The notes under the pieces: model-generated | The model's database searches: none | Seen by the model: only the letters and a program-made list of their open reading frames with translations | Told to the model about the DNA's origin: nothing | Assembly: GCF_003201775.1 (NCBI RefSeq) | Contig: NZ_QJJZ01000009.1 | Span: 1-64,000 of the forward strand | DNA length: 64,000 nucleotides | Direction of reading: 5' to 3' | Source of the DNA: Arenibacter sp. ARW7G5Y1 | GTDB lineage: Bacteria > Bacteroidota > Bacteroidia > Flavobacteriales > Flavobacteriaceae | Made by a program: the position numbers and the translations under genes | Part shown: positions 1,268-15,492 of the stretch, one piece after another | How positions within the stretch are numbered: position 1 is the stretch's first letter | Layout: each line of letters begins with the position of its first letter

Positions 1268-1283
1268 TTACGGAAAACTGTAA
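1268..1283. promoter_or_regulatory. Palindromic operator between divergent tracrRNA and cas9 promoters
   Basis: The site reads TTACGGAAAACTGTAA, a 16-bp imperfect palindrome of the five-member family described in the findings. Toward cas9 it is followed after 20 bp by TATGTTTA (1304-1311), one base from the Bacteroidota -7 consensus, 21 bp before the ATG. Toward tracrRNA it is followed after 22 bp by TATCTTAG (1245-1238). The site centre would therefore be near -41 for both promoters, as for an activator touching RNA polymerase. The position is seen in the sequence; the activator role is inferred. Confidence 0.65.
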
Positions 1284-1332
1284 AATGTTAAAGTAAATTT
1301 TCTTATGTTTAGTAATAATAAAATGTAAAAAA

Positions 1333-4300
1333 ATGGCAAGAATTTTAGGTTTGGATTTAGGGACAAATTCTATTGGATGGGCGATTGTTGATGATATGGA
1401 TAATAAGATATTAGGTATGGGAAGTAGAATTTTTCCAATGGGAGTTGAGAATTTAGGAGAAGGTGAAGGAAGGGAAATTTCTAAAAACGCAGGAAGAACT
1501 GGTGCAAGAGGAGTTAGAAGACAATTTTTTAGAAGAAGATTACGAAAGAAAATATTATTAAAAGCACTTTCTGAAAATAAGATGTGTCCAATGATTGCTT
1601 CGGATTTTGAAGATTGGAAAAAAACTAAACAATTCCCAACTGAAAAATTAGCTAATTGGTTTGCCTTAAATCCTTATGAATTACGTCAAAAAGCTTTGAA
1701 TAGAAAATTATCTTTTGAAGAAATTGGTAGAATTTTTTATCATTTAATTCAAAGACGTGGATTTTTGAGTAATAACAGAAAAGGTGAAACTGATGACGGA
1801 GCCATTTTTAAAGGAAACGAAAAAGAAGGTAAAATAGGAATTACCAAAACACAAGAAAGTATTCAAGATAAAACTTTAGGGTCTTATTTATTTGAAATTT
1901 ATCCAAAAGAATATCAACCTTTTCAGAATAGTTTGGAGAGAATTCGTAATCGTTACACAACCCGTAAAATGTACATTGATGAATTTGAATTGATTTGGAA
2001 TAAACAATCAGAATTTCATTCAAATTTGAATGAAGATTTGAAAACACTATTTGGGGGAAGAAAATTAGATGGCTATAGAGAAGATGGTATTTTATTTCAT
2101 CAACGACCTTTACGTTCTCAGAAACATTTGGTTGGAAATTGTTCTTTTGAACCAACTAAGACAAAATGCCCAAAAAGTGCCATTCCATTTGAAAAATTTA
2201 GAGTATGGCAATGGGTAAATACGGTGGAGTACAACGGAAATAAAATTTCACTAGAAGAAAAAGAAAAAATTATAACATTCCTTTATACCAATGAAAAACC
2301 CAATTTTAAAAAAATAAGAAAAGTTATTGGGAAGGAAAGTGCAGAATATAAATTCAACTATAAAAACGATGATAAAATAGTGGGTACGCACACTATTTCA
2401 AACTTGTCAAACAAGAAGTATTTTGGTAATAAATGGTTTGATTTTTCAGAAAAGGAACAAGAGGATATTTGGCACACTTTGTATTTCTTTGATAGTAAAT
2501 CCAACCTAAAAGAATACGCAGTTAAAAATTGGAATTTTACCGAAGCAAAAGCAGAGGCTATTTCAAAATTTAATGTAAAAGATGGCTATTCCAGCTTAAG
2601 CCGTAAAGCAATACATAACATTTTACCTTTTTTACAGTTGGGCTTTACCTATGATGTTGCGGTGGTTTTAGGTGGAATTAAAAATACTTTTGGCACGGAT
2701 TGGGAACAATTATCAAATAAAAAAAGAAACTTTTTAATTAACAATGTTGAGGATATAGTCAGATTTAAAAGCATTGGCGGATTTATAGGAGTAATTAAGG
2801 ATATTCTGCGAAAGGAGTATAATTTGTCCGATTCTCAATTGAGAAAATTATATCATCATTCGGCAGATATTACTATAAAGGAGTTATTGGAAAAATTGCC
2901 AGTTGGCAAAGATGCCGACAAAGAAATACAATCTATTAAAAACCCTATAGTTATTACAGCTTTATTTGAGTTGCGAAAATTGGTTAATGAATTAATTGAT
3001 GAACACGGCAAAATTGATGTGATAAAAGTGGAAATGGCTCGGGATTTAAAAATTTCAAAGTCGCAGCGAAATAAAATTAGAAGTGAGCAAAAAAGATTGG
3101 AACGTGAGAACGATAGGGTAAAAGATAGATTGAATGAAGTAGGTATTCGAATAACACATGACAATCTTTTATTGTACAAACTTTGGGAAGAGTGTAAAAA
3201 AACCTGTCCATATACAGGTGAACCAATTTCTATAACCAAATTGTTTTCTGGTGAAGTTCAAATAGAACATATCCATCCTTGGAGCCGTTCATTAAATGAT
3301 AGTTTTTCAAACAAAACTTTGTGTTATGCTGATGAGAATAGAAAAAAGGGAAACAAAACACCCTATGAATATTATGGAAATGACAATGCCAATTGGTCTG
3401 CAATAAAAGAACGTGCTTTAAAGTTGTTTTCTGACACCAAGGAATATCCAAATGCTTACCAAAAGTTTAAACGATTTGTACAACAAAAATTTGATGATGA
3501 TTTTTCCACAAGACAATTAAACGATACCCGTTATATTAGTAAAGAAGCAAAAAACTATTTATCAAAAATCTGTAAAAATGTAATCGTCTCGCCTGGACAA
3601 GCCACTTCAAATTTGAGGCAAAAATGGGGCTTGAATTCTGTTTTAAATATTGAAAATACAAAAATAAGGGAAGATCATAGGCACCATGCAGTTGATGCAT
3701 TGGTTATGGCTTGTACAAAAGTTTCGTTTGTGCAAGAACTTTCAAAATGGAATAGGTATAATAGAAATTCCGAATTGAAAAACTTCCCTATGCCTTGGGA
3801 AACTTTTAGGTATGATGCCGAAAAGGCAGTTGATAAAGTTTTGGTTTCCCATAAAAAGGTTTCAAATGATATTACCATTAGAATTCATATCACTGAAAAG
3901 AATGGTAAAAAATATGACAACACCGGTGTAGCAGCAAGAGGGCAACTGCATAAAGAAACTGTTTTTGGAAAGCGTAATTTTAACGGAGAAGAAGCTTTTC
4001 ACGTGAGGAAACCGATTGATGGTTTAACAACTGTAAAACAAATTGAAAAAGTTGTTGATGAAACTACTCGCTTATTGATTTTAAAAAGGATTAATGAATT
4101 GGGGGGATTTATAAAAGATAAAGTTCCTGCAAATACTTTTTTTGTAGTGGATGAAAATGGGGTAAAACAGCCCCAAATTTTCTTACCTAATAAAAACGGT
4201 GAAGCTGTTCCAATTTTTAAGGTAAGAGTGAAAGAAAATATTGGTGGTGCGGAAAAGCTAAAAGAAAATGTAAATCAATGGGTAAATCCTAGAAACAACC

Positions 4301-4713
4301 ACCATGTATTGATTTATAAAGATGAACAAGGAAACCTAAAAGAAGAAGTAGTGACTTTTTGGACGGTTGTAGAGCGAAAACGCACAGGGGATTCAGCCCA
4401 TAAATTACCAATTGATGGAAAAGAAATAGTAACAACGTTACATATTAATGATATGTTTTTATTGGGTTTAAAAGAAGAGGAAATCAATTGGGAGAATCCA
4501 GATTATGAAGTTTTGAAGGAGCATTTGTATAGGATACAAAAGTTGTCTTCTAAATTTTATGAATTTAGGTTAAATACTGAAGCTTCAATTCAGAATAATT
4601 TTCAACCCTTTTATGTAAGAATCCATAGCTTTGGAGAAGGAAAAACAGGATGGCTAACATTTAATCCGATAAAAGTAAAAATTTCAGTTTCTGGGAAAAT
4701 CCAAAAAGTATAA
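1333..4713 (+). CDS. cas9: CRISPR-associated endonuclease Cas9, compact type II-C
   Basis: RNA-guided nuclease that uses a crRNA:tracrRNA duplex to cut both strands of matching DNA. The RuvC-I motif is at the N-terminus (ILGLDLGTNSIGWAI, catalytic Asp8), followed by the Arg-rich bridge helix around residues 55-78. RuvC-II is IKVEMARDLK with Glu567. The HNH domain has CPYTGEP and then IEHIHPWSRS with catalytic His646 and a downstream ADENR. RuvC-III is HRHHAVDALVMA with His785 and Asp788. The C-terminal 300 residues should be the wedge/PAM-interacting part. All catalytic residues are intact. At 1126 aa it falls in the short II-C class; many flavobacterial Cas9 proteins are nearer 1400 aa. The array follows directly on the same strand. 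The start is the first ATG, before the conserved ARILGLD. Confidence 0.97.
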   Translation: MARILGLDLGTNSIGWAIVDDMDNKILGMGSRIFPMGVENLGEGEGREISKNAGRTGARGVRRQFFRRRLRKKILLKALSENKMCPMIASDFEDWKKTKQFPTEKLANWFALNPYELRQKALNRKLSFEEIGRIFYHLIQRRGFLSNNRKGETDDGAIFKGNEKEGKIGITKTQESIQDKTLGSYLFEIYPKEYQPFQNSLERIRNRYTTRKMYIDEFELIWNKQSEFHSNLNEDLKTLFGGRKLDGYREDGILFHQRPLRSQKHLVGNCSFEPTKTKCPKSAIPFEKFRVWQWVNTVEYNGNKISLEEKEKIITFLYTNEKPNFKKIRKVIGKESAEYKFNYKNDDKIVGTHTISNLSNKKYFGNKWFDFSEKEQEDIWHTLYFFDSKSNLKEYAVKNWNFTEAKAEAISKFNVKDGYSSLSRKAIHNILPFLQLGFTYDVAVVLGGIKNTFGTDWEQLSNKKRNFLINNVEDIVRFKSIGGFIGVIKDILRKEYNLSDSQLRKLYHHSADITIKELLEKLPVGKDADKEIQSIKNPIVITALFELRKLVNELIDEHGKIDVIKVEMARDLKISKSQRNKIRSEQKRLERENDRVKDRLNEVGIRITHDNLLLYKLWEECKKTCPYTGEPISITKLFSGEVQIEHIHPWSRSLNDSFSNKTLCYADENRKKGNKTPYEYYGNDNANWSAIKERALKLFSDTKEYPNAYQKFKRFVQQKFDDDFSTRQLNDTRYISKEAKNYLSKICKNVIVSPGQATSNLRQKWGLNSVLNIENTKIREDHRHHAVDALVMACTKVSFVQELSKWNRYNRNSELKNFPMPWETFRYDAEKAVDKVLVSHKKVSNDITIRIHITEKNGKKYDNTGVAARGQLHKETVFGKRNFNGEEAFHVRKPIDGLTTVKQIEKVVDETTRLLILKRINELGGFIKDKVPANTFFVVDENGVKQPQIFLPNKNGEAVPIFKVRVKENIGGAEKLKENVNQWVNPRNNHHVLIYKDEQGNLKEEVVTFWTVVERKRTGDSAHKLPIDGKEIVTTLHINDMFLLGLKEEEINWENPDYEVLKEHLYRIQKLSSKFYEFRLNTEASIQNNFQPFYVRIHSFGEGKTGWLTFNPIKVKISVSGKIQKV

Positions 4714-4785
4714 TTTGTCCTCCCTCATTACAATCTTAGATTATAAAAAAAGTTCTTTGATATAAAGCTTAAAATCTATAAATGT

Positions 4786-4821
4786 GGTATACATGTAGCC
4801 TTCACTAAAAATCACGATATT
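4786..4821 (+). repeat. Degenerate CRISPR repeat at the cas9-side end of the array
   Basis: This 36-bp segment lies exactly one 30-bp spacer before the first intact repeat. Its last ten bases (TCACGATATT) are identical to the repeat end, while the 5' 26 bases match only at scattered positions (20 of 36 overall). The in-register spacing shows it is a decayed repeat. In type II systems the repeat that pairs with tracrRNA lies 3' of its spacer, so the spacer at 4822-4851 can still use the intact repeat at 4852. Confidence 0.8.
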
Positions 4822-4851
4822 GTACCATTGTAGAGAACGTGACAGGGAGGG

Positions 4852-5743
4852 GTTGTGGTTTGATTAAAGATTAGAAGTCACGATATTCAACAACTTATTA
4901 AGGTGTGCCTCTTCCCTGTTGTGGTTTGATTAAAGATTAGAAGTCACGATATTTTTATGCCTATACAGATAAGGACCTTGCTCGTTGTGGTTTGATTAAA
5001 GATTAGAAGTCACGATATTCGAGGATGAAGAGGAAGAAACGTTCTACAGGTTGTGGTTTGATTAAAGATTAGAAGTCACGATATTAGCAAATAAAGTATA
5101 CAACATGCTTAACAGTTGTGGTTTGATTAAAGATTAGAAGTCACGATATTAAGAACCTCTATCGGTATCCATAACAGCGTGTTGTGGTTTGATTAAAGAT
5201 TAGAAGTCACGATATTTGGGATGATGCCAGAGCCTTACATACCTTCGTTGTGGTTTGATTAAAGATTAGAAGTCACGATATTTAGTCCTAAATAAGACCC
5301 TTGCACGCATCCGTTGTGGTTTGATTAAAGATTAGAAGTCACGATATTCGTGCAATCAATTAAGACTTATGACAACACGTTGTGGTTTGATTAAAGATTA
5401 GAAGTCACGATATTCACAACTTTTGTTGCTAAAGACAACGCTGCGTTGTGGTTTGATTAAAGATTAGAAGTCACGATATTGATGATAGGTTTAAGGATGA
5501 GGAGGGCAATGTTGTGGTTTGATTAAAGATTAGAAGTCACGATATTTTTTGAAAAGGAAATGATGTTATCCATTCCGTTGTGGTTTGATTAAAGATTAGA
5601 AGTCACGATATTTAATTTCACCCAATCCCATACGTTGTTGACGTTGTGGTTTGATTAAAGATTAGAAGTCACGATATTCAAATCCTTCTCATATTGATTA
5701 ACATCCTGTTGTGGTTTGATTAAAGATTAGAAGTCACGATATT
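4852..5743 (+). CRISPR. Type II-C CRISPR array, 14 repeats and 13 spacers
   Basis: Fourteen 36-bp repeats begin at 4852, 4918, 4984, 5050, 5115, 5181, 5247, 5313, 5379, 5445, 5511, 5577, 5643 and 5708. I saw no variation among them. The repeat starts GTTGTGGTTTGATTAAAG and ends TCACGATATT. Spacers are 30 bp, except 29 bp at 5086-5114 and 5679-5707. The tracrRNA anti-repeat pairs with the 5' part of the repeat as read on the plus strand, so crRNAs come from the plus strand. A further spacer (4822-4851) sits before the first intact repeat. The 5' GTTGTGG start is typical of II-C repeats. Confidence 0.98.
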
Positions 5744-5795
5744 AGTTGTCTTGTGGCCTTCTGGTAGTCAGCAAATTAAGAGGTAATATCGGGAT

Positions 5796-5844
5796 AAAAA
5801 ATGCTCCTTTTTAGCAGTGATAAGGCTAGATTGGGGCATTTTTT
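5796..5844. terminator. Bidirectional terminator between the array and cas2
   Basis: AAAAAATGCTCC (5796-5807) pairs with GGGGCATTTTTT (5833-5844), giving a 12-bp stem with one G-T pair and a 25-base loop. T runs occur on both strands, so it can end the array transcript (plus) and the cas1-cas2 transcript (minus). The loop contains ATAAGGCTA, the same nine bases as the tracrRNA nexus core (see findings). Confidence 0.75.
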
Positions 5845-5929
5845 GGTTTAGAAAAAATGGCACTTAAAGAAAATTTGATATTATGCCATAAAAAGGGTAC
5901 AAGAAGGCTATTTTAAAGGAGGCACTATT

Positions 5930-6259
5930 TTAAAATAATTCTAACTGCGTAGGTTGCGGCTCTGTAGGGACTTCAAGTTTTCCCCAGAAGTTTAGGGTAT
6001 TTCCGAATTGTTTATCGGTAATGCGCAATATACTGACTTTGCCCAAAGGGGGCAGTAGGCCATGAACACGTTTTTCGTGTACGTCGGCACTTTCACTACT
6101 TGCACAATGTCTCATATACACCGAATATTGCATCATCGTAAAGCCATCCTTCAATAGATCCTTTCTAAAGCCGGATGCATTCTTGCGGTCTTTTGCAGTG
6201 TCGGTTGGTAAATCAAAGAATACAAATAACCACATAATTCTATAACCGTTTAATTCCAT
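5930..6259 (-). CDS. cas2: CRISPR-associated protein Cas2
   Basis: Small adaptation protein that bridges two Cas1 dimers during spacer integration. The ferredoxin-like fold begins MELNGYRIMWLFVFFDLPTD, with the conserved Asp after the first strand (FFDLPT), and continues through RKDLLKDGFTMMQYSVYMRHC and the second-strand region KVSILRITDKQFG. I chose the ATG at 6259, which overlaps the end of cas1 by 10 bp. A longer frame to 6301 adds 14 unrelated residues inside cas1. The length of 109 aa is normal. It is co-transcribed with cas1 and convergent with the array. Confidence 0.93.
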   Translation of the reverse strand: MELNGYRIMWLFVFFDLPTDTAKDRKNASGFRKDLLKDGFTMMQYSVYMRHCASSESADVHEKRVHGLLPPLGKVSILRITDKQFGNTLNFWGKLEVPTEPQPTQLELF

Positions 6260-7155
6260 AGTTGGGGGAACTTGATCTTTTTCCGTTCTCCCGTATAGCA
6301 TTGTTGTAGGGAGCTGGCAGTTTTTTGTAAGCCTACCATTAAGGGGCTTTTTTCACTTTTAAAATATACAGTGCGTGTTAGCAAATTAAGCATTTCGGAT
6401 TTGATGGAAGTGTTTAGTTCTTGTATATCATAGGATTCTATTAGGGTGTACACCAGTTCATCTACCAATGGCCTGTATGGTTCCATAATATCATCTGCAA
6501 GGGCAAAGGCATTGTATTTATTTTTATGGTGTATTCCTAGGGTGTTCAACAAGCCGCTGCCAGATAATGCCCTAGCGGTGGCCGCCCTTAGGATAGCATA
6601 ACCGTAGTTTAAAAAATTATTGGGGTAATTTCCGAATCGCTCCCTTTTAAATGGTTGTTCAAAAAAGGAACTCCAATAAGCACTGGCGGCAACCCCTTCC
6701 ATATTGGAGGTATCACCGCTTAAAACCTTGCTCGATAAATAATCGAATTGATTTTTCTTTTGTGTCATCCTCTCGAGAAGTATACCCTGATTGTTTATTT
6801 TTTCCTTTACGGTTTGTTGCCATAACTTCTTTTTTAACGGTACACTGGCCTCCAATTGGTATTTGAACAATTGTTGTTGAATATGGTGTCCATCCAAATT
6901 AAGGAACATACCACTGGGCATATGGACCTTATTACAGATAATTATGGAGGTATTTTTTTCTATAAGATGATTGAGTGCAGGGATGCTAATAAAGGTTTCC
7001 GGGTGGTCTATTACCAAAAAGCCAATATCTTCCATTGGAATAGTAGCCGTTCGTTCTTCGGTTTCAATGAAAAGCTGTAGGTTTCGGCATATGATTTTAG
7101 CTTTCTTCTCTATTAAAATAGATCTTTTTATCATTTTTACGGTATTAGAAAACAA
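6250..7155 (-). CDS. cas1: CRISPR-associated endonuclease Cas1
   Basis: Spacer integrase. The 301-aa protein has the N-terminal beta domain (IKRSILIEKKAKIICRNLQL, then ERTATIPMEDIGFLVIDHPE) and the helical catalytic domain. Metal ligands appear as Glu in SNMEGVAASAYW, His in LGIHHKNKYNAF and Asp in ALADDIMEPYRP, so the active site looks intact. It lies on the strand opposite cas9 and ends overlapping cas2. There is no csn2 or cas4, in agreement with type II-C. The -7-like element TATCTTAG at 7174-7167 leaves only a very short leader before the ATG. Confidence 0.95.
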   Translation of the reverse strand: MFSNTVKMIKRSILIEKKAKIICRNLQLFIETEERTATIPMEDIGFLVIDHPETFISIPALNHLIEKNTSIIICNKVHMPSGMFLNLDGHHIQQQLFKYQLEASVPLKKKLWQQTVKEKINNQGILLERMTQKKNQFDYLSSKVLSGDTSNMEGVAASAYWSSFFEQPFKRERFGNYPNNFLNYGYAILRAATARALSGSGLLNTLGIHHKNKYNAFALADDIMEPYRPLVDELVYTLIESYDIQELNTSIKSEMLNLLTRTVYFKSEKSPLMVGLQKTASSLQQCYTGERKKIKFPQLWN

Positions 7156-7195
7156 ATAGGTTTTTTCTAAGATAGAATATTGAACCGCTCAAGTT

Positions 7196-7211
7196 TTACG
7201 GATTTTCGTAA
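7196..7211. promoter_or_regulatory. Palindromic operator between cas1-cas2 and the secreted nuclease gene
   Basis: TTACGGATTTTCGTAA is a member of the five-site palindrome family. In the cas1 direction it is followed after 21 bp by TATCTTAG (7174-7167), the same octamer as at tracrRNA. In the direction of the 7260 gene it is followed after 22 bp by TATTTTAG (7234-7241). One site can thus serve both divergent promoters at about -41. Confidence 0.65.
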
Positions 7212-7259
7212 GGACAACTGCCTCTTTTTTAACTATTTTAGTATCCTAATACATACTGG

Positions 7260-8072
7260 ATGTTAAAAAATCTACTTTTTATATTCCTTGCCCTTCTTCA
7301 CTTTAATTTTTATTCCCAGAAAGATAATATCAAACTGGTATCCTGGAACATACGGGATTTTGGACAAACAAAAAGCAGTGAGGAATTGGATGAAATTGCC
7401 GAAATTGTTCGGGATGTGGATATTATAGCCATACAGGAAGTAGTGGCCGGTTATGGGGGTGCTCAGGCCGTGGCAAAACTGACCGATATGTTGAACAGAA
7501 AGGGCAATAATTGGGATTATGTGATCAGTAACCCCACGAATAGCTCAAAGTATGTTACAGAACGTTATGCTTTTATCTGGAAAACCAAGCACATAAAGAT
7601 CAAAAATAGGGGCGGGCTGGTTGCAGAATTGGATTCTCAAATAGATCGGGAACCCTTTTTATTGGATTTCTATTTGGGTAAAAGAAAGTTCAGTATACTC
7701 AATTTTCATTCAAGACCCTTTAATAAAGATCCAGAAAGTGAAATTAGGGCCTTGACCAAGTTTGTGACTAACACGGCCAACACAACTTTGATACTTGCAG
7801 GGGATTTTAATGTAGACGAAAAGGAAGCTGTATTTAGCGAGCTTAAAAGGAAAGGTTTTGCCGCTGCGGTTTCGAATCAAAAAACAACCTTAAAAAGAAC
7901 ATGTGATCAAAACGATTACCTCAATTATGCCATTGATAATATTTTTTATTCCAAGGAGGTCTATAAATTGGAAGGTAGGGTTATAGATTTTGTGAAGTTC
8001 TGTGAAAGTCTGGAAAAGGCAAGAAAAATATCCGACCATTTACCGATTTTCCTAAAGTTTAGTTTGAGATAA
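7260..8072 (+). CDS. Secreted endonuclease/exonuclease/phosphatase family protein
   Basis: A 270-aa protein with a Sec signal peptide (about residues 1-20, ending FNFYSQ) followed by a DNase I-like fold. The family motifs are present in order: KLVSWNIRDFGQ (Asn ligand), DIIAIQEVV (Glu metal ligand), ILAGDFNVDE (the GDFN catalytic strand) and KISDHLPIFL (final Asp-His pair). It is probably a secreted or periplasmic metal-dependent nuclease acting on DNA or RNA; a phosphatase role cannot be excluded. It is divergent from cas1 and shares an operator with it, so it may be produced together with the CRISPR adaptation genes. Confidence 0.85.
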   Translation: MLKNLLFIFLALLHFNFYSQKDNIKLVSWNIRDFGQTKSSEELDEIAEIVRDVDIIAIQEVVAGYGGAQAVAKLTDMLNRKGNNWDYVISNPTNSSKYVTERYAFIWKTKHIKIKNRGGLVAELDSQIDREPFLLDFYLGKRKFSILNFHSRPFNKDPESEIRALTKFVTNTANTTLILAGDFNVDEKEAVFSELKRKGFAAAVSNQKTTLKRTCDQNDYLNYAIDNIFYSKEVYKLEGRVIDFVKFCESLEKARKISDHLPIFLKFSLR

Positions 8073-8152
8073 GGCTTTCTATATCTTCCTTCTTTAACAG
8101 GGTCTTGTTCTATTTTATAGCCTGAGGTGTTTGATTATTTATGGTCATTATT

Positions 8153-8413
8153 TTACACTCCATTTGGGAACATAAATTGTAAAAGCAAAAATACAACGGA
8201 TAATAATAGCAATATATTTAATAAACACCCACTATTCTTAGTTTTGGAAAAAGTCTTACGGTAAGTTAAGCCAGGTATTCCGGTTCTTACCGAATATCCC
8301 TTTGAACTTAAACTTCCTCTTCCGGTTCTAAGACTGGGTGTTATTCCAGATTTGCTAATGTTAATTCCTAATCCTTTAATTAGGTTGACTCTTTTATTAA
8401 ATCTGAATGCCAT
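8153..8413 (-). CDS. DUF4236 domain membrane protein
   Basis: An 86-aa protein. Residues 1-52 match the DUF4236 pattern (FRFNKRVNLIKGLGINISKSG, then a Gly/Arg/Ser-rich stretch ending RTGIPGLTYRKTF). A single hydrophobic segment follows (about 63-81, LLNILLLLSVVFLLLQFMF). The function of DUF4236 is not known. It starts 3 bp after the upstream lipoprotein gene stops and is the last gene of the 11.5-8.15 kb operon. Confidence 0.8.
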   Translation of the reverse strand: MAFRFNKRVNLIKGLGINISKSGITPSLRTGRGSLSSKGYSVRTGIPGLTYRKTFSKTKNSGCLLNILLLLSVVFLLLQFMFPNGV

Positions 8414-8416
8414 AGC

Positions 8417-9325
8417 TTATTCATTTAAAATAAAATCACGTATCACATTTTCTATATTTGAAGGTAAATCGGCTTGTTTTATTTCGAAATTGCTTACATT
8501 CATTTCAGTCAGCCATTTGGTCCAGTAAGTTCTTATAATATCTTCTTCATAAGGATTTTTGGCATCAGGATTTATACCCAATACTAGAACCTCAAGCTTA
8601 TTCAGGTGTTTATTGGCCGTTACAAATCCGAAATCTTGTTGATCAAATTTGTCTTTCCAACCTGGTTTGTTAAATGTATAATGCTTTACATCTTGCGGAG
8701 TTAAATATGTTGTTCTATTTCCTTCCTTAATTTTGGTATCCTTATGGTAGATATAGCCATCCGTTAAAATTATTAGAATATTTCTGTAGCCATCAGTTAT
8801 ACAGTAATCGTTAACCTTATTCTTAAAAAAACGCCAAATATCAGAACCAACATAGTGGTTGTCTTTAATGGCAGCTTCGTAAATCAAAGTAGAGATACTG
8901 TCATATTTTTGACAAGTGGCTAAAATTCCTTTTTTTGTAACTGTGTTCTTATCAAAAGAAATTTTAAGTACCTCCAATTTTTTGTTTAGAGTTTTATCTG
9001 AAGGTTCTGGGTCAATAAATACTTGAATTTTGTCGTCTATTTTTATTAATTTTTTATTCATGATATGAGACTCAAAATTCTCTGCAATAGTTTTTAAATA
9101 GCCGATATCTCTTTGATAAAATTCCATTGCTGGAGCAGGATATTTTTCTGGGTTTATCCTGTCTGACAAATCCAAAAGTATACTAATGTTTAGATCATCT
9201 TTTGCTAAAACCTTTGGGAATTCATGTTTATGAATAAGCTCATCATACTTAGGGCTATCTTTACAAGAGACAACAGTAAAAGATAATAGCATTAATATTA
9301 TTGAGGACTGGATATAATTTTTCAT
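8417..9325 (-). CDS. VWA-like lipoprotein
   Basis: A 302-aa lipoprotein with the lipobox TVVSC (Cys21). The mature part has a von Willebrand A-like layout: a beta strand with a partial MIDAS motif (NISILLDLSDRINP), a central region, then YRNILIILTDGYIYHKDT, which matches the second MIDAS strand with Thr-Asp-Gly. The metal site looks degenerate because the usual DxSxS is DLSDR. It probably mediates protein contacts in the periplasm. It lies 4 bp after the four-TM gene, so the two are translated together and may form a complex. Confidence 0.7.
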   Translation of the reverse strand: MKNYIQSSIILMLLSFTVVSCKDSPKYDELIHKHEFPKVLAKDDLNISILLDLSDRINPEKYPAPAMEFYQRDIGYLKTIAENFESHIMNKKLIKIDDKIQVFIDPEPSDKTLNKKLEVLKISFDKNTVTKKGILATCQKYDSISTLIYEAAIKDNHYVGSDIWRFFKNKVNDYCITDGYRNILIILTDGYIYHKDTKIKEGNRTTYLTPQDVKHYTFNKPGWKDKFDQQDFGFVTANKHLNKLEVLVLGINPDAKNPYEEDIIRTYWTKWLTEMNVSNFEIKQADLPSNIENVIRDFILNE

Positions 9326-9329
9326 TTTA

Positions 9330-10592
9330 TTAGTTTACTAGTTTGTATAAACGTCCTTCATAGTTTTCATCGGCAATATCATGTTCTTGCAAATGCTTTT
9401 TTTCTTCAGTAGTACAAAGAGATAATAATTCGTCTTTTCTTTTTAAATCGTCGAAATTATCAGCTATTCCAAGAAACCACCCTTTAACATATTCAGCATG
9501 ATAAGTGAGATAGTGCTTATTGGAAAATACAAAGCCATCTATAGTTCGTTGTAAATCGTTTATTTTACCTTCAAATCCTGAAATTTCTTCTTTTATAGGG
9601 TTTAATTTTTCTATTTGAGATATGATTTCCTGTTCACAGTTTTTGATGTCTTCTCTTTTGGATCTTATAAATGTCTTGATTTTATCAAAGTTGTCATATT
9701 CTTTCATAATAAAATCGAAAACCAACCCCCAAATAATATAGACTACAAAACCTGCGAAAATAATACCCCAAAATTCAGCTTTTGTGAAAGCTATTTGAGC
9801 GTTAAAGTCAGGGGAATTAAGTGTCTTCTCTATATCATAAATTTTCTTTTCAATTTGATATGCTAGAATTGAGTCAAAAATAAAAGTAACTATAAACAAG
9901 GTCGCTATCTTAACATAGGAAAGCCAGTTTTTATGTTTTTGAAACATATGGATTAAATATCCCAATCCCATAAAGGCGAAAGGAATAGTCGCAACAAACA
10001 CTCCTTCCAACCAACCATCTTCTATTGCTTTTGTTAAGGCATTGGCATCAAAAATTGCATTGGTAAGTTGGTCAGTATCAAATGTTTTAAAAAAGGCAGA
10101 ATAGGAGGCAGAAATATAGAAAACTAGTAAATAAAAAGTGATAGGAATCAGGACAGCCAAACCAAGATAAAATTGTGCTTTTGGCTTCTTGTCAACATCC
10201 TCTACAAATTTTTCAGGATTATGCTTTACTTCCGATATTTCACTTTTAAAAATTGAAATCTTACTTTCCAAAGCAGCAATACATTCCTCGATAATACTTT
10301 TTACTGTTTTTCTTTTCTTTAATTCAATTTCATACTTACTTCTTTCTTGTACATAAGGTTCCTTTAATTCTTTCTGGAGCTTTTCATCTTCACGACATTT
10401 ACCCTTATAATCCATATAAACATTTTGCAAACAAGCCTTGAATATTGTATGATTACCTGATGCTTGTTTTGATGAACCATAGCCACTTTCAAAAAATGAA
10501 AGTTTTATTTTTTTAACATCTTCCTCTTTAGGTTTTTCAATTTCCTGAGGAATACTTTTTTTTATGGAGAATATATTTTTTAAAGTACTCAT
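9330..10592 (-). CDS. Four-TM coiled-coil membrane protein, unknown
   Basis: A 420-aa protein of no family I recognise. Residues 1-140 are cytoplasmic and highly charged, with a coiled coil about 65-125. Four hydrophobic segments lie near 141-162, 197-216, 227-246 and 273-294. A second coiled coil covers about 300-350, and the C-terminal 70 residues are soluble. The layout suggests a membrane hub with large cytoplasmic arms. It is one base pair from the TerB-like gene upstream and 4 bp from the VWA lipoprotein downstream, so the three products probably work together across the inner membrane. Confidence 0.65.
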   Translation of the reverse strand: MSTLKNIFSIKKSIPQEIEKPKEEDVKKIKLSFFESGYGSSKQASGNHTIFKACLQNVYMDYKGKCREDEKLQKELKEPYVQERSKYEIELKKRKTVKSIIEECIAALESKISIFKSEISEVKHNPEKFVEDVDKKPKAQFYLGLAVLIPITFYLLVFYISASYSAFFKTFDTDQLTNAIFDANALTKAIEDGWLEGVFVATIPFAFMGLGYLIHMFQKHKNWLSYVKIATLFIVTFIFDSILAYQIEKKIYDIEKTLNSPDFNAQIAFTKAEFWGIIFAGFVVYIIWGLVFDFIMKEYDNFDKIKTFIRSKREDIKNCEQEIISQIEKLNPIKEEISGFEGKINDLQRTIDGFVFSNKHYLTYHAEYVKGWFLGIADNFDDLKRKDELLSLCTTEEKKHLQEHDIADENYEGRLYKLVN

Positions 10593-10593
10593 A

Positions 10594-10989
10594 TCATTCT
10601 TGCATTTTGGTAATTAATTCTTTTAAGGAGGTTTTTTCTTTTGCATTTTCCAAAAGAAACTCACATATACCATCAATGTTTTCTTCTAAAAACTCAAATT
10701 TCATACAATACTTTTTTAAGGTATTTGTTTCATCTTCCGTGACTATACCATCTGCCCAGATCATTAGAGCTAAATCATATAGATATTCAATCTTCTCATC
10801 TAAGGATTCGGGAACTAAAGACTCCTGTGAAGGGTTTAATAAAATTTCATTCAATTGATCTTTACTAAGCCCTCTTTCTTCTGCAAAATTGTAAAGCATC
10901 TTTAATTCAAGAACATTGAAATTATCATCTGCAAAAGCCATTAGATATAATCTTAAAAAGTGACTTTTTAATTCGGTTGATATATTCAT
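10594..10989 (-). CDS. TerB-like helical protein
   Basis: A 131-aa all-helical protein. LYLMAFADDNFNVLELKMLYNFAEERGLS and LALMIWADGIVTEDETNTLKKYC form the two pseudo-symmetric TerB-type halves, each with the acidic (A)DG/D-x-x-E loop that binds metal in the tellurite-resistance TerB family. TerB proteins are cytoplasmic and usually act with membrane and VWA partners. Here a membrane protein and a VWA-like lipoprotein follow directly, which supports the assignment. The substrate or stress is unknown. Confidence 0.72.
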   Translation of the reverse strand: MNISTELKSHFLRLYLMAFADDNFNVLELKMLYNFAEERGLSKDQLNEILLNPSQESLVPESLDEKIEYLYDLALMIWADGIVTEDETNTLKKYCMKFEFLEENIDGICEFLLENAKEKTSLKELITKMQE

Positions 10990-11001
10990 TTTAACTTCTA
11001 T

Positions 11002-11298
11002 TTAATTTTCACAAGCGATATTATCATTGTCTCTATCTAAATTGGAATAACAATCTTTATCAGTTTCAAATGTTGATTGGGCCTCTGCTTGCGTAGCGAA
11101 GTCTGAATATTTTTTGGACTCGCAAGTAGATTCTGAGTTACAGGAGAGACCTGTCAATGCAGCCAGTATGATGAGAAAAATACCTAAACAACCTTTTTTG
11201 TTATTTCTTTTAAAAATTTTATTTGATCGACCTTTGCTTACAAAATGTCCTTGAACATAGGTTCCATCTTTCTTAAAATATCCTTTTCGATAACTCAT
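11002..11298 (-). CDS. Membrane-anchored Excalibur calcium-binding domain protein
   Basis: A 98-aa protein. The basic N-terminus (about 1-34, YRKGYFKKDGTYVQGHF) resembles the short Arg/Lys-rich start seen in many flavobacterial Excalibur proteins. A hydrophobic segment (37-52) ends with LSC, possibly a lipobox. The C-terminal 40 residues are an Excalibur domain: CESKKYSDFATQAEAQ, a Cys pair and the calcium-loop motif DRDNDNIACEN. It sits inside the YegP-TerB-DUF4236 operon, 12 bp before the TerB-like gene. Confidence 0.8.
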   Translation of the reverse strand: MSYRKGYFKKDGTYVQGHFVSKGRSNKIFKRNNKKGCLGIFLIILAALTGLSCNSESTCESKKYSDFATQAEAQSTFETDKDCYSNLDRDNDNIACEN

Positions 11299-11321
11299 TT
11301 TAATACGAACTAAAAATTACT

Positions 11322-11507
11322 TTATGATAAGTCTATCACTTCTGCATTAGAAGCATCTCTTTTTACAGCGTCAATACCATCTTTGCAATTCTGTTTTGCA
11401 TTATACATCTCGCTCGTCGCTATAACCTCTCCGTTACCTTTTGACCTTAGATTGAAGTAAAATTTACCGTTTGAACTTTTTTTGATTTCAAATTTTGGAT
11501 TAGCCAT
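11322..11507 (-). CDS. YegP family (DUF1508) small protein
   Basis: A 61-aa protein with one DUF1508 repeat: PKFEIKKSSNGKFYFNLRSKGNGEVIATSEMY, then the Ala/Lys helix NCKDGIDAVKRDA. Members are small cytoplasmic proteins, often induced by stress, without a known biochemical role. It is the first gene of the operon reaching to 8153. Its promoter has a perfect -7 element TAGGTTTG (11538-11531) and a palindromic operator 21 bp further upstream. Confidence 0.85.
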   Translation of the reverse strand: MANPKFEIKKSSNGKFYFNLRSKGNGEVIATSEMYNAKQNCKDGIDAVKRDASNAEVIDLS

Positions 11508-11559
11508 GATTATTTTATTTATTAATTATTCAAACCTAAACTCTTTGGAAGAGAATACC

Positions 11560-11575
11560 TTACAGATTTCCGTAA
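11560..11575. promoter_or_regulatory. Palindromic operator upstream of the YegP-TerB operon
   Basis: TTACAGATTTCCGTAA, followed on the minus strand after exactly 21 bp by TAGGTTTG (11538-11531), a perfect -7 element; the ATG is at 11507. Spacing and -7 sequence are the same as at the 12382 site. Confidence 0.7.
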
Positions 11576-11579
11576 TAAA

Positions 11580-11608
11580 AAAAAGAACTGATGTTAATAG
11601 TTCTTTTT
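11580..11608. terminator. Hairpin terminator upstream of the YegP promoter
   Basis: AAAAAGAACT (11580-11589) and AGTTCTTTTT (11599-11608) form a 10-bp stem with a nine-base loop and T/A runs on both strands. It can stop minus-strand transcripts from the DUF2188 gene before the next promoter. Confidence 0.65.
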
Positions 11609-11899
11609 GATTGACGGTATTAAGGGTATTTTCTAATCCTCTGAACCATATAAGGTTCTACCCATTTCTTTTTATAACTTCATAGGGTTTTGTAAAACAA
11701 TTAGAGAGTCCTCTAAGTGCTTTTTTGAAATGTTACTTTCCTATACATATATAGACTTAGGTGTCAATGAAGCTAAGATAAAAAGGAGTTAAGAATGTTA
11801 CTATGATAAATAGTTTAGACATTCTTTAATTATACGGAGTTTTAGTGTGATTTATTTTTTAATCATACGTCACTTTCTAAACGGCGCAAACATGTTGTT

Positions 11900-12142
11900 C
11901 TAATGTTTTGTGTCTTTTGATGACTTAGGATCATTCCCAGGTTTAACCGTGTCAGAGTCTCTTATTTTACCATCTAAGCCATGTATTCTAACCTCTCCAC
12001 CGCCAGAATTAGAAGATAATTCTTTTGCCCTTTTTTCGGCTTCTTTTTGTGTGTTGGCATATTCACTAACTTTTTCTCCTCCCTCTTTTTGAATTCTCCA
12101 TTTATCTTTATTGTTGTCTTTTGAAACATGATAATTTGCCAT
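11900..12142 (-). CDS. DUF2188 small protein
   Basis: An 80-aa hydrophilic protein. Residues 1-58 match DUF2188: NYHVSKDNNKDKWRIQKEGGEKVSEYANTQKEAEKRAKEL, then the strand EVRIHGLDGKIRDSDTV. The C-terminal tail is Lys/Asp/Ser-rich and disordered. DUF2188 and DUF1508 (YegP) are small stress-associated proteins, and both occur here under look-alike promoters. It lies 33 bp after the small Cys-containing gene and is probably co-transcribed with it. Confidence 0.8.
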   Translation of the reverse strand: MANYHVSKDNNKDKWRIQKEGGEKVSEYANTQKEAEKRAKELSSNSGGGEVRIHGLDGKIRDSDTVKPGNDPKSSKDTKH

Positions 12143-12175
12143 AGTATTTAGTTTTGGTTATTATTTATTGTAGAT

Positions 12176-12325
12176 TCAATTTTTACAGCCATTTTTATCA
12201 CATGTAATCCTTTCTGAAGTATTTATCCAATGATTTGGATTTTCTGTTGTGTTGAACCCGCAACCTGTTTTCCCTCCTTTTGTTCCTGAATGAACTTCAT
12301 TTGTTGGTGTATGCTTAACTGCCAT
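12176..12325 (-). CDS. Small Cys-containing protein, 49 aa, unknown
   Basis: Begins at the ATG at 12325 with MAVKHTPTNEVHSGTKGG and ends ITCDKNGCKN. It has three Cys (GCGF and CDKNGC) plus His residues, so a zinc- or metal-binding knuckle is possible. A longer frame to 12433 would run through the promoter and operator and is rejected. The gene follows a perfect -7 element TAGGTTTG (12360-12353), 27 bp upstream, with the palindromic operator at the same 21-bp spacing as for the YegP operon. I do not recognise the family. Confidence 0.7.
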   Translation of the reverse strand: MAVKHTPTNEVHSGTKGGKTGCGFNTTENPNHWINTSERITCDKNGCKN

Positions 12326-12381
12326 AATATTTAATTTTAAATTAATAATATACAAACCTAAACCCATTAAAAAAGAATCCC

Positions 12382-12397
12382 TTACGGATATCTGTAA
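12382..12397. promoter_or_regulatory. Palindromic operator upstream of the small-protein operon
   Basis: TTACGGATATCTGTAA, embedded in a larger inverted repeat (AATCCCTTAC at 12376-12385 and GTAAGGGATT at 12394-12403). On the minus strand TAGGTTTG (12360-12353) follows 21 bp after the 16-mer. The extended hairpin might also act as a terminator for convergent transcripts. Confidence 0.7.
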
Positions 12398-12429
12398 GGG
12401 ATTGGTAATTTTTGAAAATAAATATGTAT

Positions 12430-13095
12430 TCAAATCAGTCCATCACGGGTGAGTAGGGCAATTAGTTGGGTTGTATTTTTTGCTCCAAAATCATCAAATA
12501 ATTTGCTCACTCTTTTATCAATGGTACTTTCGCTATTAGGGGTAATATTATGTTGTTTGAATTTTTCCGCGATTTCCTTTTTGCTTAGACCATTGGCCAG
12601 CTCTGTTAAAATAAGGATGTCAAATTCATCTAATTCGAATACATTGTTGCCGGATACCATGTTTATTTGAGGGGAAACATAGGTTTGGCCCTGATTCACC
12701 ATGTGGATTGCTTCCACAAGTTCGGTTAAACTATGGCGTCCCTTACAGACATAACCATTAATTTTTTGTTCTTGAAAAAGGGATTTTATTTTGGCAGGAT
12801 TGTCTTCCATAGAATTAACAATCACCTTTATATTGGGCTGAATTGCTTTTATGGAATTAATAAGATTTATACCCGAGGTAAGTTTACGGTCTACATAACT
12901 CTCCTTAAAGGACAGGTCCGTAATTAAAAGTTGAAAAGGAACTTTATTTGTAAGTGCTAGTTTAAGTCTGTTATACGCCTTATCACAATAGAGTTCTTCT
13001 TGTATTTCAGGGATATTCAGTTTGTGTGATAAGGTAGTTGCAATACCCGTATTGGTATCTTGAAAATCTTCGGCGATCAAAATTTTTTTGAACAT
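12430..13095 (-). CDS. LuxR/NarL-type response regulator
   Basis: A 221-aa two-domain regulator. The receiver domain (about 1-125) has the acidic pair Glu9-Asp10 (LIAEDFQD), the phosphorylation site Asp60 (QLLITDLSF), and Lys118 (YVCKGR). The C-terminal domain (about 150-221) is a LuxR-type helix-turn-helix (FDILILTELANGLSKKEIAEKF, then STIDKRVSKLFDDFG). It lies 14 bp after the histidine kinase gene and is its obvious partner. NarL-family regulators often bind palindromes of about 16 bp, so it is the best candidate to bind the TTACGGATATCCGTAA-like sites around it; this is inference. Confidence 0.9.
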   Translation of the reverse strand: MFKKILIAEDFQDTNTGIATTLSHKLNIPEIQEELYCDKAYNRLKLALTNKVPFQLLITDLSFKESYVDRKLTSGINLINSIKAIQPNIKVIVNSMEDNPAKIKSLFQEQKINGYVCKGRHSLTELVEAIHMVNQGQTYVSPQINMVSGNNVFELDEFDILILTELANGLSKKEIAEKFKQHNITPNSESTIDKRVSKLFDDFGAKNTTQLIALLTRDGLI

Positions 13096-13109
13096 AGTGT
13101 AGAACGTTT

Positions 13110-15056
13110 TTAATTTGGAGTTTTAATCTGGGCCTTAAATCCTTTGCCTTTTTCAGTTTCAAATATAATTGTTCCCCCAATTGCCCGAATACGCTTTTCT
13201 GTATTACGAAGTCCATTTTTATTCCCCAATTGTACTTTGGTAGCTCCTACACCATTATCGGAATATTGGATTTGTAAGAGATCCGACGTTTTTTTGAAAG
13301 TTATGTTTACTGCACTTGCCATACTGTACTTGGTCATGTTTATCATTAATTCCCTAAGCACTTTGTACAATGTTATTTTGGTCAATCCATTTACTGTTGA
13401 CCAATCTATTTCCTTACTTCCCCTAAGGATTAATTTGACGGTCTTAGGAGTATGCGAACGCAGCATTTGCAAAAGTTCCTCCCTAAAGTTGGCGTCTAAC
13501 TCTATCTCATTGATTTCCCTTGAAAAGTCCCTACTTTGATTATAAAGTCCTTCCAAAGTATCTAGTATGGTTGGTTTATCTGTATTATTTTGAACCATGA
13601 TCATAGCGTGATTTAGTTTTCCTCCAAAGTCATCATGTAGTTTTCTGGATAATTCAGCCTCGGTTTCATATGTTGCTTCAAGTTTTGCAAACTTGTTTTG
13701 TTCCAATAAACGTTTGTTACGTTGTTTATAGAAGATGAACATAAAACCAATGATCATTAAAAGTAATGCCAAACCAAATAGAGCCAAGGTTTTCTGGTTG
13801 CGCTGTCTTGCTACATCCAGTTGTTCTTCCGCCTTTTCTTTTTGTAAAAGCAGTATGGATTCCAGCTTTAACCTATCATCGTATTTGTATTTGGCAAATT
13901 GGGTTTTCACCTTTAATTCTTGGGTGTAAAGACTATCTTGTAAAAAAATGTAGCGATCTCTAAATTCAATGTTTTTAGGAGTTAATTGTATAAGAAACGT
14001 TAAGGCATCTTTTTCTGCCTTGGGAATTTTAAGGGTTTTGGATAATTGTATTGCCAAATCAAAATAGGAAATCGCTTTTTTAATGTCGGTTTTTGAATAA
14101 AACGCACCTAAATGGGTAAAGCTGGCAATTTGTCCTCGCTTGTCATCATTCTTTACCCTAATTTCCAAGGCCTCCTTAAAAATTGCTTCCGCATTTGTAG
14201 TAGTATTGTTTAACCATTCTGCATAAGCCAAGTTGTCCATTGACCGGGCGTATTCTTTTGGACTTTTTAGCAGTAGTGTATCATGAACTATATCTTTAAG
14301 AATGCCAATAGCCTTTTCAAATTGGTTAAAGTCCGAGTGAGTAGCCGCTAAGTTGTTCTTATAGACCAACCTGTCCTCTTTAGAATCCGTAGTTTCAATT
14401 GCCTTATAATAATAGCCAATGGCATCATCGTAATTCATTAACTTTCTGTGATTGGTGGCCAAGGCATTATAGCAAGATGATAAGAATTGGATATCCTCTT
14501 CTGAGTTTAGAAACTGTATGGCCTCGGTTAAAGTTTCCTTACTTCCATAATGGTCATTCTGATTTTGTTGAATGAGACCCATGCTTAAAAGGTTATTTCC
14601 TACCCAACTACTATCCTGAATGTATTGAAAGTGACTTTTTGAAAGGTTATAATTGATAAATGCACTATCAGGATTATGGGTAATCTCATCAAAATAATAT
14701 GCCCTTAAATAATGGTATCTTCCTAAAATGTATTTGTTTTCCACCTGATCGGCAAGCCTTTTTAGAAGATTACCAAAGATATTTAAACTATCGTATTGTT
14801 GCTGAGTATAATGAAGAAGGGTTTTCTGATAAAGTATTCTTAAAAATAAACTATCACTACCCATCATTTTTGCATAATGCAAAGACATGTTTACATCTGA
14901 TTGCCTTTGGACTAGTGAACGATTCTTGTTTTTGGAAGCCTTGTAATAAAATATAATACTGTCCTGTATTCCTTCATTTTTTAAGGAATCTGTCCGATGA
15001 CTATGTCGGCAGGAGCAAAGCAGACTAATAAAAAACAAAATTAATATTTTTCTCAA
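13110..15056 (-). CDS. TPR sensor histidine kinase (HisKA_3-like)
   Basis: A 648-aa sensor. It has a signal/lipoprotein-like N-terminus (LISLLCSC, Cys16), then a long helical region of tetratricopeptide repeats (about 60-380; for example YNALATNHRKLMNYDDAIGY) predicted to face the periplasm. A coiled coil precedes one membrane segment near 424-443 (TLALFGLALLLMIIGFMFIF). The cytoplasmic part has the phospho-acceptor motif SRKLHDDFGGKL (His near 474) and an HATPase with an N-box-like region and YSDNGVGA near 600. It phosphorylates the regulator encoded next. A strong hairpin lies just upstream, so its expression is probably lower than that of the 55-aa lipoprotein gene before it. Confidence 0.9.
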   Translation of the reverse strand: MRKILILFFISLLCSCRHSHRTDSLKNEGIQDSIIFYYKASKNKNRSLVQRQSDVNMSLHYAKMMGSDSLFLRILYQKTLLHYTQQQYDSLNIFGNLLKRLADQVENKYILGRYHYLRAYYFDEITHNPDSAFINYNLSKSHFQYIQDSSWVGNNLLSMGLIQQNQNDHYGSKETLTEAIQFLNSEEDIQFLSSCYNALATNHRKLMNYDDAIGYYYKAIETTDSKEDRLVYKNNLAATHSDFNQFEKAIGILKDIVHDTLLLKSPKEYARSMDNLAYAEWLNNTTTNAEAIFKEALEIRVKNDDKRGQIASFTHLGAFYSKTDIKKAISYFDLAIQLSKTLKIPKAEKDALTFLIQLTPKNIEFRDRYIFLQDSLYTQELKVKTQFAKYKYDDRLKLESILLLQKEKAEEQLDVARQRNQKTLALFGLALLLMIIGFMFIFYKQRNKRLLEQNKFAKLEATYETEAELSRKLHDDFGGKLNHAMIMVQNNTDKPTILDTLEGLYNQSRDFSREINEIELDANFREELLQMLRSHTPKTVKLILRGSKEIDWSTVNGLTKITLYKVLRELMINMTKYSMASAVNITFKKTSDLLQIQYSDNGVGATKVQLGNKNGLRNTEKRIRAIGGTIIFETEKGKGFKAQIKTPN

Positions 15057-15083
15057 AATGCCATTTTCTCTTTAAATGTATTC

Positions 15084-15116
15084 AAAAAAATGAACCATAC
15101 CTTAAGGTATGGTTCA
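15084..15116 (-). terminator. Terminator/attenuator between the small lipoprotein and the kinase gene
   Basis: Positions 15091-15116 are a 26-bp perfect palindrome (arm TGAACCATACCTT), followed on the minus strand by seven T (15090-15084). It stops most transcripts of the 15138-15305 gene just before the kinase ATG at 15056. Readthrough would give low kinase and regulator levels. Confidence 0.85.
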
Positions 15117-15137
15117 AATCAGTAAAGATTATTTATT

Positions 15138-15305
15138 CTAATCTTCATCATCAGGTGGTGGAGGGGGGGGTTTAACTTGGCCATCATCCCCCTCGGTAGC
15201 TTGGTTTTCATATAATGAATCGTTCCCTGAGACAGAATCGTCGGTACAGGAAAATAAAAACATATTAAAAGCGAGTACCATTACGGCAATTATTACTTTT
15301 TTCAT
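15138..15305 (-). CDS. Small proline-rich lipoprotein, 55 aa
   Basis: Begins MKKVIIAVMVLAFNMFLFSC, a lipoprotein signal peptide with the lipobox FSC at Cys20. The 35-residue mature part is acidic (TDDSVSGNDSLYENQATEGD) and ends in six prolines and DDED. The stop is at 15138-15140. It is below the usual ORF length cut-off but has a clean signal peptide, a strong terminator behind it and the sensor kinase gene next to it. A role as a periplasmic ligand or output marker of the kinase is possible but unproven. Confidence 0.75.
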   Translation of the reverse strand: MKKVIIAVMVLAFNMFLFSCTDDSVSGNDSLYENQATEGDDGQVKPPPPPPDDED

Positions 15306-15476
15306 AATTTGTGATTTTGAGATTAAACAAAGGGGTTGCTGTCCGTGCTTTCGTTCGAAAGGTTTTTGGGTACAACAACCCGTTGAAAATGTTAGGATCG
15401 CTCCTTTGTTTTTGAGAAGTAGAAAATGTAATGCAGTAGTTTTAACTACTTCTCAACCGGCCAATCACCAACTGCA
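15306..15476 (-). promoter_or_regulatory. Structured leader/intergenic region of the small lipoprotein gene
   Basis: This stretch holds several nested hairpins: GGGTTG/CAACCC (15333-15338 with 15376-15381) enclosing CTTTCG-TT-CGAAAG (15348-15361), and an AGTAGTT/AACTACT hairpin (15435-15450) inside a 12-bp inverted repeat at 15426-15437/15471-15482. No reading frame is convincing. If the lipoprotein promoter lies upstream of these elements, its mRNA would have a long folded leader. Confidence 0.5.
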
Positions 15477-15492
15477 TTACATATTTCCGTAA
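15477..15492. promoter_or_regulatory. Palindromic operator at 15.5 kb
   Basis: TTACATATTTCCGTAA is the most diverged member of the site family. In the plus direction TATGTTAG (15514-15521) follows after 21 bp, so it would drive the 15691 gene with a leader of about 165 nt. In the minus direction no -7 element is seen at the matching distance. It overlaps the right arm of the inverted repeat ending at 15482. Confidence 0.5.

Follow-up and report, generated by a model that had tools for sequence, protein, structure and literature searches.

A 16-bp palindrome shared by CRISPR-Cas and other anti-phage genes as the probable operator of a two-component regulator in Flavobacteriaceae

The Gac/Rsm pathway of Pseudomonas coordinates antibacterial and antiviral defences, a large and species-variable set; the authors limit the defence-controlling form to Pseudomonas, name cell lysate as its signal, and speculate that defence-coordinating pathways in other phyla await discovery (PMC11888443). 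The two-component systems VicR/K of Streptococcus mutans and KinB/AlgB of Pseudomonas aeruginosa alter cas expression, the mechanism of VicR/K being called unclear in a review (PMC10013973), and WYL-domain regulators co-localize with defence islands (PMC9122601). Here, we analyse a palindrome of 16 bp that recurs at the type II CRISPR-Cas locus and neighbouring operons of Arenibacter sp. ARW7G5Y1, within the first 64,000 nucleotides of contig NZ_QJJZ01000009.1 (the window, meaning the whole stretch analysed). The motif, its promoter spacing, its link to a regulator gene and the nature of the genes downstream were computed, and they make it probable that TTACRGAWWTCYGTAA is the operator of a response regulator (gene at 12430-13095) that pairs with a TPR histidine kinase (13110-15056), and serves class II activation of an antiviral regulon.

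The closest functional parallel is the Gac/Rsm pathway, in which a single regulatory pathway also presides over many defence systems. Gac/Rsm control is post-transcriptional and was measured, whereas the control proposed here is predicted and would act through a DNA operator beside a NarL/RcsB-type regulator in Bacteroidota. VicR/K and KinB/AlgB belong to other phyla; in our locus, the operator, its spacing and the linked regulator are visible in the sequence. WYL-domain regulators are likewise defence-associated transcription factors, but they act locally and are of another class, whereas the sites described here also lie far from the regulator. Kinases of the TPR or UhpB-like type accompany NarL/RcsB-type regulators in the group of Porphyromonas FimS/FimR, UhpB, RcsB, LiaR and VraR. 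The resemblance to this group is distant, below NCBIfam cut-offs, and its members are not known to target defence genes. The two-component architecture is an ordinary one of the NarL/RcsB type, and the target set is the unusual part. A literature search, mostly outside subscription journals, found no published report of the operator or the regulon.

The earlier note on this DNA listed five palindromes, starting at 1268, 7196, 11560, 12382 and 15477, and no further copy in the remaining 48 kb; a scan for the loose form TTACN8GTAA recovers exactly these five. They all lie inside 14 kb, and shuffled windows contain 1.53 copies on average (standard deviation 1.02), with none of 100 reaching five. 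In the whole genome (5.73 Mb in 46 contigs), the tighter form TTACRGANNNNNGTAA has 12 separate locations, and the window sites account for five. The strict form TTACRGAWWTCYGTAA occurs at three places (11560, 12382 and position 95232 of contig 3), as opposed to none for the backward-read control, and the palindromes at 1268, 7196 and 15477 are one base off it. A chance motif or generic flavobacterial promoter element would account for the 1.53 loose copies per 64 kb and for the lack of a genome-scale excess, since TTACRGANNNNNGTAA has 15 matches on both strands and its backward-read control 17. The argument is consequently carried by the clustering and the strict form. Reversed sequence has almost no copy of the strict form, genomes lacking the regulator seldom carry it, and its promoter spacing is exact; these observations already contradict chance, to which we assign a negligible probability. 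Many copies at random places or in coding regions, which the earlier note had named as evidence against its proposal, did not appear for the strict motif.

Each palindrome in the window is 20-22 bp from an octamer resembling the flavobacterial -7 element TAnnTTnG, the gap that had been claimed for a TAnnTTTG-like element. The shared octamers were also correctly read: TAGGTTTG at 21 bp from both 11560 and 12382, and TATCTTAG at both tracrRNA and cas1. Octamers flank palindromes 1268 and 7196 on both sides, so that each seems to serve two divergent promoters (tracrRNA/cas9 and cas1/nuclease, respectively) as a common operator. Orientation, on which the earlier note was silent, is towards the 278-aa gene at 15613 for palindrome 15477, and towards the 49-aa/DUF2188 pair for 12382. 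That all five are intergenic holds if the 49-aa gene starts at 12325 and a 106-aa GTG-start open reading frame (ORF) over 15477 is spurious; a longer TTG-start ORF at 12176-12433 would overlap palindrome 12382.

The spacing was determined in two sets of sites. The first was drawn from the window and 80 named regulator loci and allowed up to one mismatch to the palindrome; the loci come from related species and are not independent, a weakness of this set. It contains 159 palindromes, as opposed to one in reversed sequences, and four permuted palindromes give 0, 3, 0 and 0 matches. TAnnTTTG lies exactly 21 bp from the palindrome 93 times, and never at 13-20 or 22-37 bp; TAnnTT[TA]G is found at 20-22 bp on at least one side of 132 of the 159 sites, and at other three-base offsets 0-7 times. 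The second set consists of 44 strict sites, for which the palindrome was the sole selection criterion and most of which are not near the regulator; it includes coding site L288, sites at island-type genes (L248, L291, L321, L323 and L326) and L280 beside a second regulator, and leaves out the split islands L245 and L246. TAnnTT is located at 21 bp in 31 cases, at 22 bp in five and at 20 bp in one, with 0-5 at any other offset, and 35 of the 44 sites have it at 20-22 bp. The 21-bp peak common to both sets would put the palindrome centre near -41, in constant register with the -7 element, as expected of class II activator-dependent promoters and as had been proposed. Position alone would also allow the regulator to repress these promoters by covering the -33 region. 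We consider repression unlikely, as the spacing fixed to the base pair and the apparent replacement of the -33 element fit activation.

The palindrome accompanies the regulator across Flavobacteriaceae. Of 199 genomes surveyed, 75 have a match to the regulator at E ≤ 1e-20, and 13, including that of the window, have one of at least 60% identity. Twelve of the 13 carry the strict palindrome, compared to 20 of the remaining 186 (Fisher 4.6e-10); 26 of its 49 sites are in the 13 genomes, and the backward pattern has six sites. In ten of the 20 positive genomes outside this group, the site is at most about 1 kb from the gene for a more distant regulator relative; in seven, it falls within an ORF of 821-1003 aa, was treated as coding and looks like chance; in the last three, it is elsewhere between genes. 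A set of 49 genomes was reached via 50 of the 80 regulator loci (L153 excluded), and 46 of them contain the strict palindrome, with 113 sites compared to three of the reversed pattern. Of the 63 loci whose regulator is at least 58% identical, 50 have a site no more than 300 bp 3' of the regulator gene, 32 have one 2.1-2.7 kb 5' of it (the place of 15477), and 61 have a site anywhere. The 17 more distant loci have 3' sites in five cases, a 5' site in one and any site in 11. The recurrence of motif, 21-bp spacing and regulator together gives good computational support to the response regulator 12430-13095 as the putative activator, the role for which it had been put forward.

The CRISPR-Cas locus of the window has a II-C layout, with cas9, cas1, cas2, tracrRNA and array; no csn2 or cas4 was recognized by eye among the window ORFs, for which no dedicated search was made. 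The tracrRNA stretch is conserved across 11 aligned cas9 upstream regions. Close relatives of Cas1 or Cas9 are encoded inside the island of three genomes (Cellulophaga baltica DSM 24729, C. tyrosinoxydans and an uncultured member of the Flavobacteriaceae), and in two Leeuwenhoekiella species more distantly related type II genes adjoin it. We compared 16 cas9 upstream regions of 250 bp, scoring a palindrome with at most three mismatches and TAnnTT at 20-22 bp; the cas loci of G072 and L177, whose genomes also have the regulator, were left out. Six of seven regions from genomes with a close regulator are positive (the window, both Cellulophaga, the uncultured genome, L. polynyae and Maribacter polysiphoniae; G011 is negative), as are two of the nine others, G389 and G199 (Fisher 0.04). 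Mononucleotide-shuffled regions are positive in 0.3% of cases. An intrinsic association of the motif with this Cas9 lineage was rejected, as seven of the nine regions from genomes without a close regulator lack it. CRISPR-Cas as the core of the regulon was also rejected, cas1 being present in five of 80 regulator loci with flanks of up to 10 kb. Sites of this kind accompany at least three CRISPR-Cas lineages, and judging from these genomes CRISPR-Cas is a recurrent but optional member of the putative regulon.

The palindrome might be a real operator that is read mainly by a factor other than the adjacent regulator, a possibility that we regard as distinctly unlikely. It would explain G389 and G199, which have cas9 sites without a regulator orthologue, and the fact that no palindrome of the window faces the kinase-regulator operon with a spaced -7 element. 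Autoregulation of that operon was considered and rejected, as the kinase-facing side of 15477 lacks a -7 element at the 20-22 bp spacing. The presence of the palindrome nevertheless tracks the regulator across the 199 genomes, and most of the 20 other positive genomes have their site near a distant regulator relative or in a chance-like place inside an ORF.

The regulator has the acidic pair, phospho-acceptor aspartate, serine and lysine of a NarL/FixJ receiver (E9, D10, D60, S95 and K118), which are invariant in 13 aligned sequences; PF00072 matches at 2.4e-05, below its gathering score, and a Pfam scan matched no helix-turn-helix (HTH) model. The predicted structure, with a mean predicted local distance difference test score of 85, is composed of a receiver and a four-helix C-terminal HTH domain (helices 157-167, 172-181, 189-203 and 208-217). 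Over its full length, the model matches the PDB structures of RcsB, LiaR and spr1814, with TM-scores of about 0.5-0.65 that may reflect a different packing of the domains. The kinase contains LHDDFGGKL at residue 473, which we take to be the H-box, and a HATPase domain, the combination of HisKA_3/UhpB-like kinases; the UhpB model matches residues 459-639 at 4e-15, far below its cut-off, and HATPase_c at 2.6e-05, just below. A lipoprotein-like signal seen by eye at the kinase start suggests a periplasmic TPR sensor. The 55-aa ORF at 15138-15305 is a possible signalling partner of the kinase.

We infer that the phosphorylated regulator would occupy the palindrome as a dimer, centred near -41 from the presumed transcription starts. 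The operator would stand in for the -33 promoter element, and the bound regulator would recruit RNA polymerase to the -7 element 21 bp away. The core regulon would be the conserved island, which comprises the small-protein pair, the YegP...DUF4236 operon, the nuclease and the 278-aa gene. Flavobacteria appear to have repeatedly added anti-phage systems to this core. In the present genome these are type II CRISPR-Cas, also seen in relatives, and DRT3; other genomes have type I-B CRISPR-Cas, restriction systems, Hachiman, Druantia, Pbe and Old. The pathway may raise many defences together upon one envelope-side signal.

The putative regulon is wider than the CRISPR-Cas and stress operons named before: unrelated anti-phage systems have to be added, DRT3 in this genome and others in relatives. 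The only strict site outside the window (contig 3, position 95232) is 22 bp from TATATTGC and precedes genes for Drt3a (7.2e-134) and Drt3b (4.8e-216), a DRT3 anti-phage operon. In relatives, the genes downstream of sites encode Cas6b-Cas5b-Cas3b of type I-B, type IIG restriction, DruH3 (Druantia), HamB (Hachiman), a type I methylase and PDC-S37. Other sites precede genes for PbeA/PbeC, Old, HamA, a HamB-like protein and PDC-M26A, and others again those for HsdR, a second Cas9, DruE, HamA, PDC-M30A and an HNH nuclease; further sites have HamB, an NB-ARC/TPR protein, an HNH-STAND protein and a patatin. Several unrelated defence systems thus appear to share the operator and promoter geometry.

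PADLOC matches at E ≤ 1e-40 were found in the downstream genes of 16 of the 44 strict sites, as opposed to one of 20 control loci (Fisher 0.013). A seventeenth match, PD-Lambda-5 at L316, concerns the flank that lacks a -7 element and is not part of the 16. The one control match is PD-Lambda-1 (4.1e-166), and the best weaker one has 2.4e-27. This enrichment supports the defence claim in a small, unblinded test.

Several points weigh against the palindrome as a defence operator of this regulator. The PADLOC scans covered 32 of the 44 sites, with genes chosen by the analyst and unblinded, and the controls are few (47 ORFs of 200 aa or more, at round-number positions picked by hand in 11 of the genomes that supplied the sites). 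No match at E ≤ 1e-40 was found on either side of 15 of the 32 scanned sites, a few of which show a weaker or Pfam-level defence resemblance. TAnnTT is missing at 20-22 bp from nine of the 44 strict sites, including those of one Hachiman system and of the type I-B CRISPR of an uncultured Maribacter (L306). In the first spacing set, a fifth permuted palindrome, which shares most letters with the motif, gives 83 matches. The cas9 sites of both Cellulophaga species are degraded, with three mismatches, and M. polysiphoniae entered the cas9 comparison via its site, without which five of six regions are positive. G389 has good sites at cas1 and at cas9/tracrRNA and no regulator relative at E ≤ 1e-5; G199 has a three-mismatch site at cas9 and only distant regulators. 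The two congeners examined, G212 and G373, have no close orthologue of the regulator.

The palindrome may alternatively mark an envelope-stress or general-stress regulon that defence genes joined by chance as a minority. A PADLOC scan of four core proteins (nuclease, 302-aa, 420-aa and TerB-like) matched no established defence system, the TerB-like protein matching only a weak candidate at 3.5e-05, and some targets look unrelated to defence, such as the polysaccharide-like genes of L295 and a TetR-like gene of L317. On the other hand, unrelated defence systems recur at distant sites, and CRISPR-Cas from at least three lineages is among the genes with sites. We regard a stress regulon as a less probable alternative that deserves consideration, and favour an antiviral one.

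Table 1. Features of the window around the palindromes.
Feature	Position	Strand	Evidence and remarks
tracrRNA	1141..1235	-	extent approximate; anti-repeat, conserved body, terminator-like end; by eye
-7 octamer TATCTTAG, tracrRNA promoter	1238..1245	-	22 bp from palindrome 1268
Palindrome	1268..1283		between divergent tracrRNA and cas9 promoters
-7-like octamer TATGTTTA, cas9 promoter	1304..1311	+	20 bp from palindrome 1268
cas9, 1126 aa	1333..4713	+	NCBIfam TIGR01865 2.6e-196
CRISPR array	4852..5743		14 full repeats of 36 bp
cas2	5930..6301	-	TIGR01573 3.5e-17
cas1, type II	6250..7155	-	TIGR03639 6.2e-86
-7 octamer TATCTTAG, cas1	7167..7174	-	21 bp from palindrome 7196
Palindrome	7196..7211		between cas1 and nuclease gene
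-7 octamer TATTTTAG, nuclease	7234..7241	+	22 bp from palindrome 7196
Endonuclease/exonuclease/phosphatase (EEP) family protein	7260..8072	+	PF03372 4.2e-09; signal-peptide-like N-terminus by eye; in 46/80 loci
DUF4236 protein	8153..8413	-	PF14020 2.1e-06
302-aa lipoprotein-like protein	8417..9325	-	no Pfam family; VWA-like by eye; in 25/80 loci
420-aa protein, hydrophobic stretches, same operon	9330..10592	-	no Pfam family; in 25/80 loci
TerB-like protein	10594..10989	-	PF05099 7.2e-05, below gathering score; in 25/80 loci
Excalibur-domain protein	11002..11298	-	PF05901 1.6e-04
YegP-like DUF1508 protein, first gene of operon	11322..11507	-	PF07411 3.9e-19
-7 octamer TAGGTTTG	11531..11538	-	21 bp from palindrome 11560
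Palindrome	11560..11575		upstream of YegP...DUF4236 operon
DUF2188 protein	11900..12142	-	PF09954 1.7e-19
49-aa protein	12176..12325	-	no Pfam family; in 16/80 loci
-7 octamer TAGGTTTG	12353..12360	-	21 bp from palindrome 12382
Palindrome	12382..12397		upstream of 49-aa/DUF2188 genes, just 3' of response regulator
NarL/RcsB-type response regulator, proposed palindrome binder	12430..13095	-	NCBIfam, structure model, alignment
TPR sensor histidine kinase, UhpB-like kinase part	13110..15056	-	Pfam, NCBIfam
55-aa lipoprotein-like ORF	15138..15305	-	just upstream of kinase; proline/acidic tail; translation
Palindrome	15477..15492		facing 278-aa gene
-7 octamer TATGTTAG	15514..15521	+	21 bp rightward of palindrome 15477
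278-aa ORF (ATG at 15692 possible), one hydrophobic stretch	15613..16449	+	no Pfam family; in 59/80 loci

CRISPR-Cas fills the gap between the lipoprotein/DUF4236 end and the EEP nuclease in two Cellulophaga species, lies just beyond the nuclease in the window, and is located between regulator and nuclease in the uncultured genome. A defence hotspot in this gap was rejected as a general rule, as the gap is at most 330 bp in 15 of 20 two-ended loci. Beyond the tracrRNA, window 394-741 encodes a 115-aa protein that is HTH-regulator-like by eye, and a segment matching it at 66% identity is near a site in L287.

Other genes at the sites were noted. An operon for a 515/508-aa protein, a 312-aa protein and an Hsp70-like protein is found in L290 (1-4106) and L141 (11787-19782), once at a distant site and once inside an island; the L141 version adds an AAA/protein kinase and a TerB-like ORF. 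In L318 (1472-4117), an 881-aa NB-ARC/TPR protein is encoded 122 bp behind the operator, which has TAAGTTGC at 21 bp, and a 182-aa ORF that is TIR-like by eye follows; the locus is a candidate for a new antiviral STAND system. No PADLOC model matched the 515-aa protein, the NB-ARC/TPR protein or the HNH-STAND protein at E ≤ 1e-5. Proteins of about 350 aa with near-alike N-termini adjoin sites in several islands (L178:11547-12602, L136:10780-11829 and L313:4097-5149), that of L178 carrying an HsdR N-terminal domain. Small proteins that are YidD-like by eye and share a CIFxxSCS motif are encoded near operator sites in L248 (4878-5216), L246 (9802-10083) and L134 (15916-16230). In L295 (1102-3881), the genes downstream of an operator that has TAGGTTTG at 21 bp resemble, by eye, those of surface-polysaccharide synthesis and perhaps change a phage receptor.

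How bacteria coordinate their many defence systems is largely an open question, and the locus offers a concrete candidate from Bacteroidota with a named regulator, operator and targets, amenable to testing in cultured marine flavobacteria. The operator could be a handle for finding new defence systems, with the NB-ARC/TPR, HNH-STAND and Hsp70-operon proteins at its sites as candidates. We speculate, with about even confidence for and against, that the pathway is an immune master switch of Flavobacteriaceae, which would sense envelope-side attack and induce the antiviral repertoire, and that incoming adaptive and innate systems may be kept upon gaining the 16-bp operator 21 bp from their -7 element.

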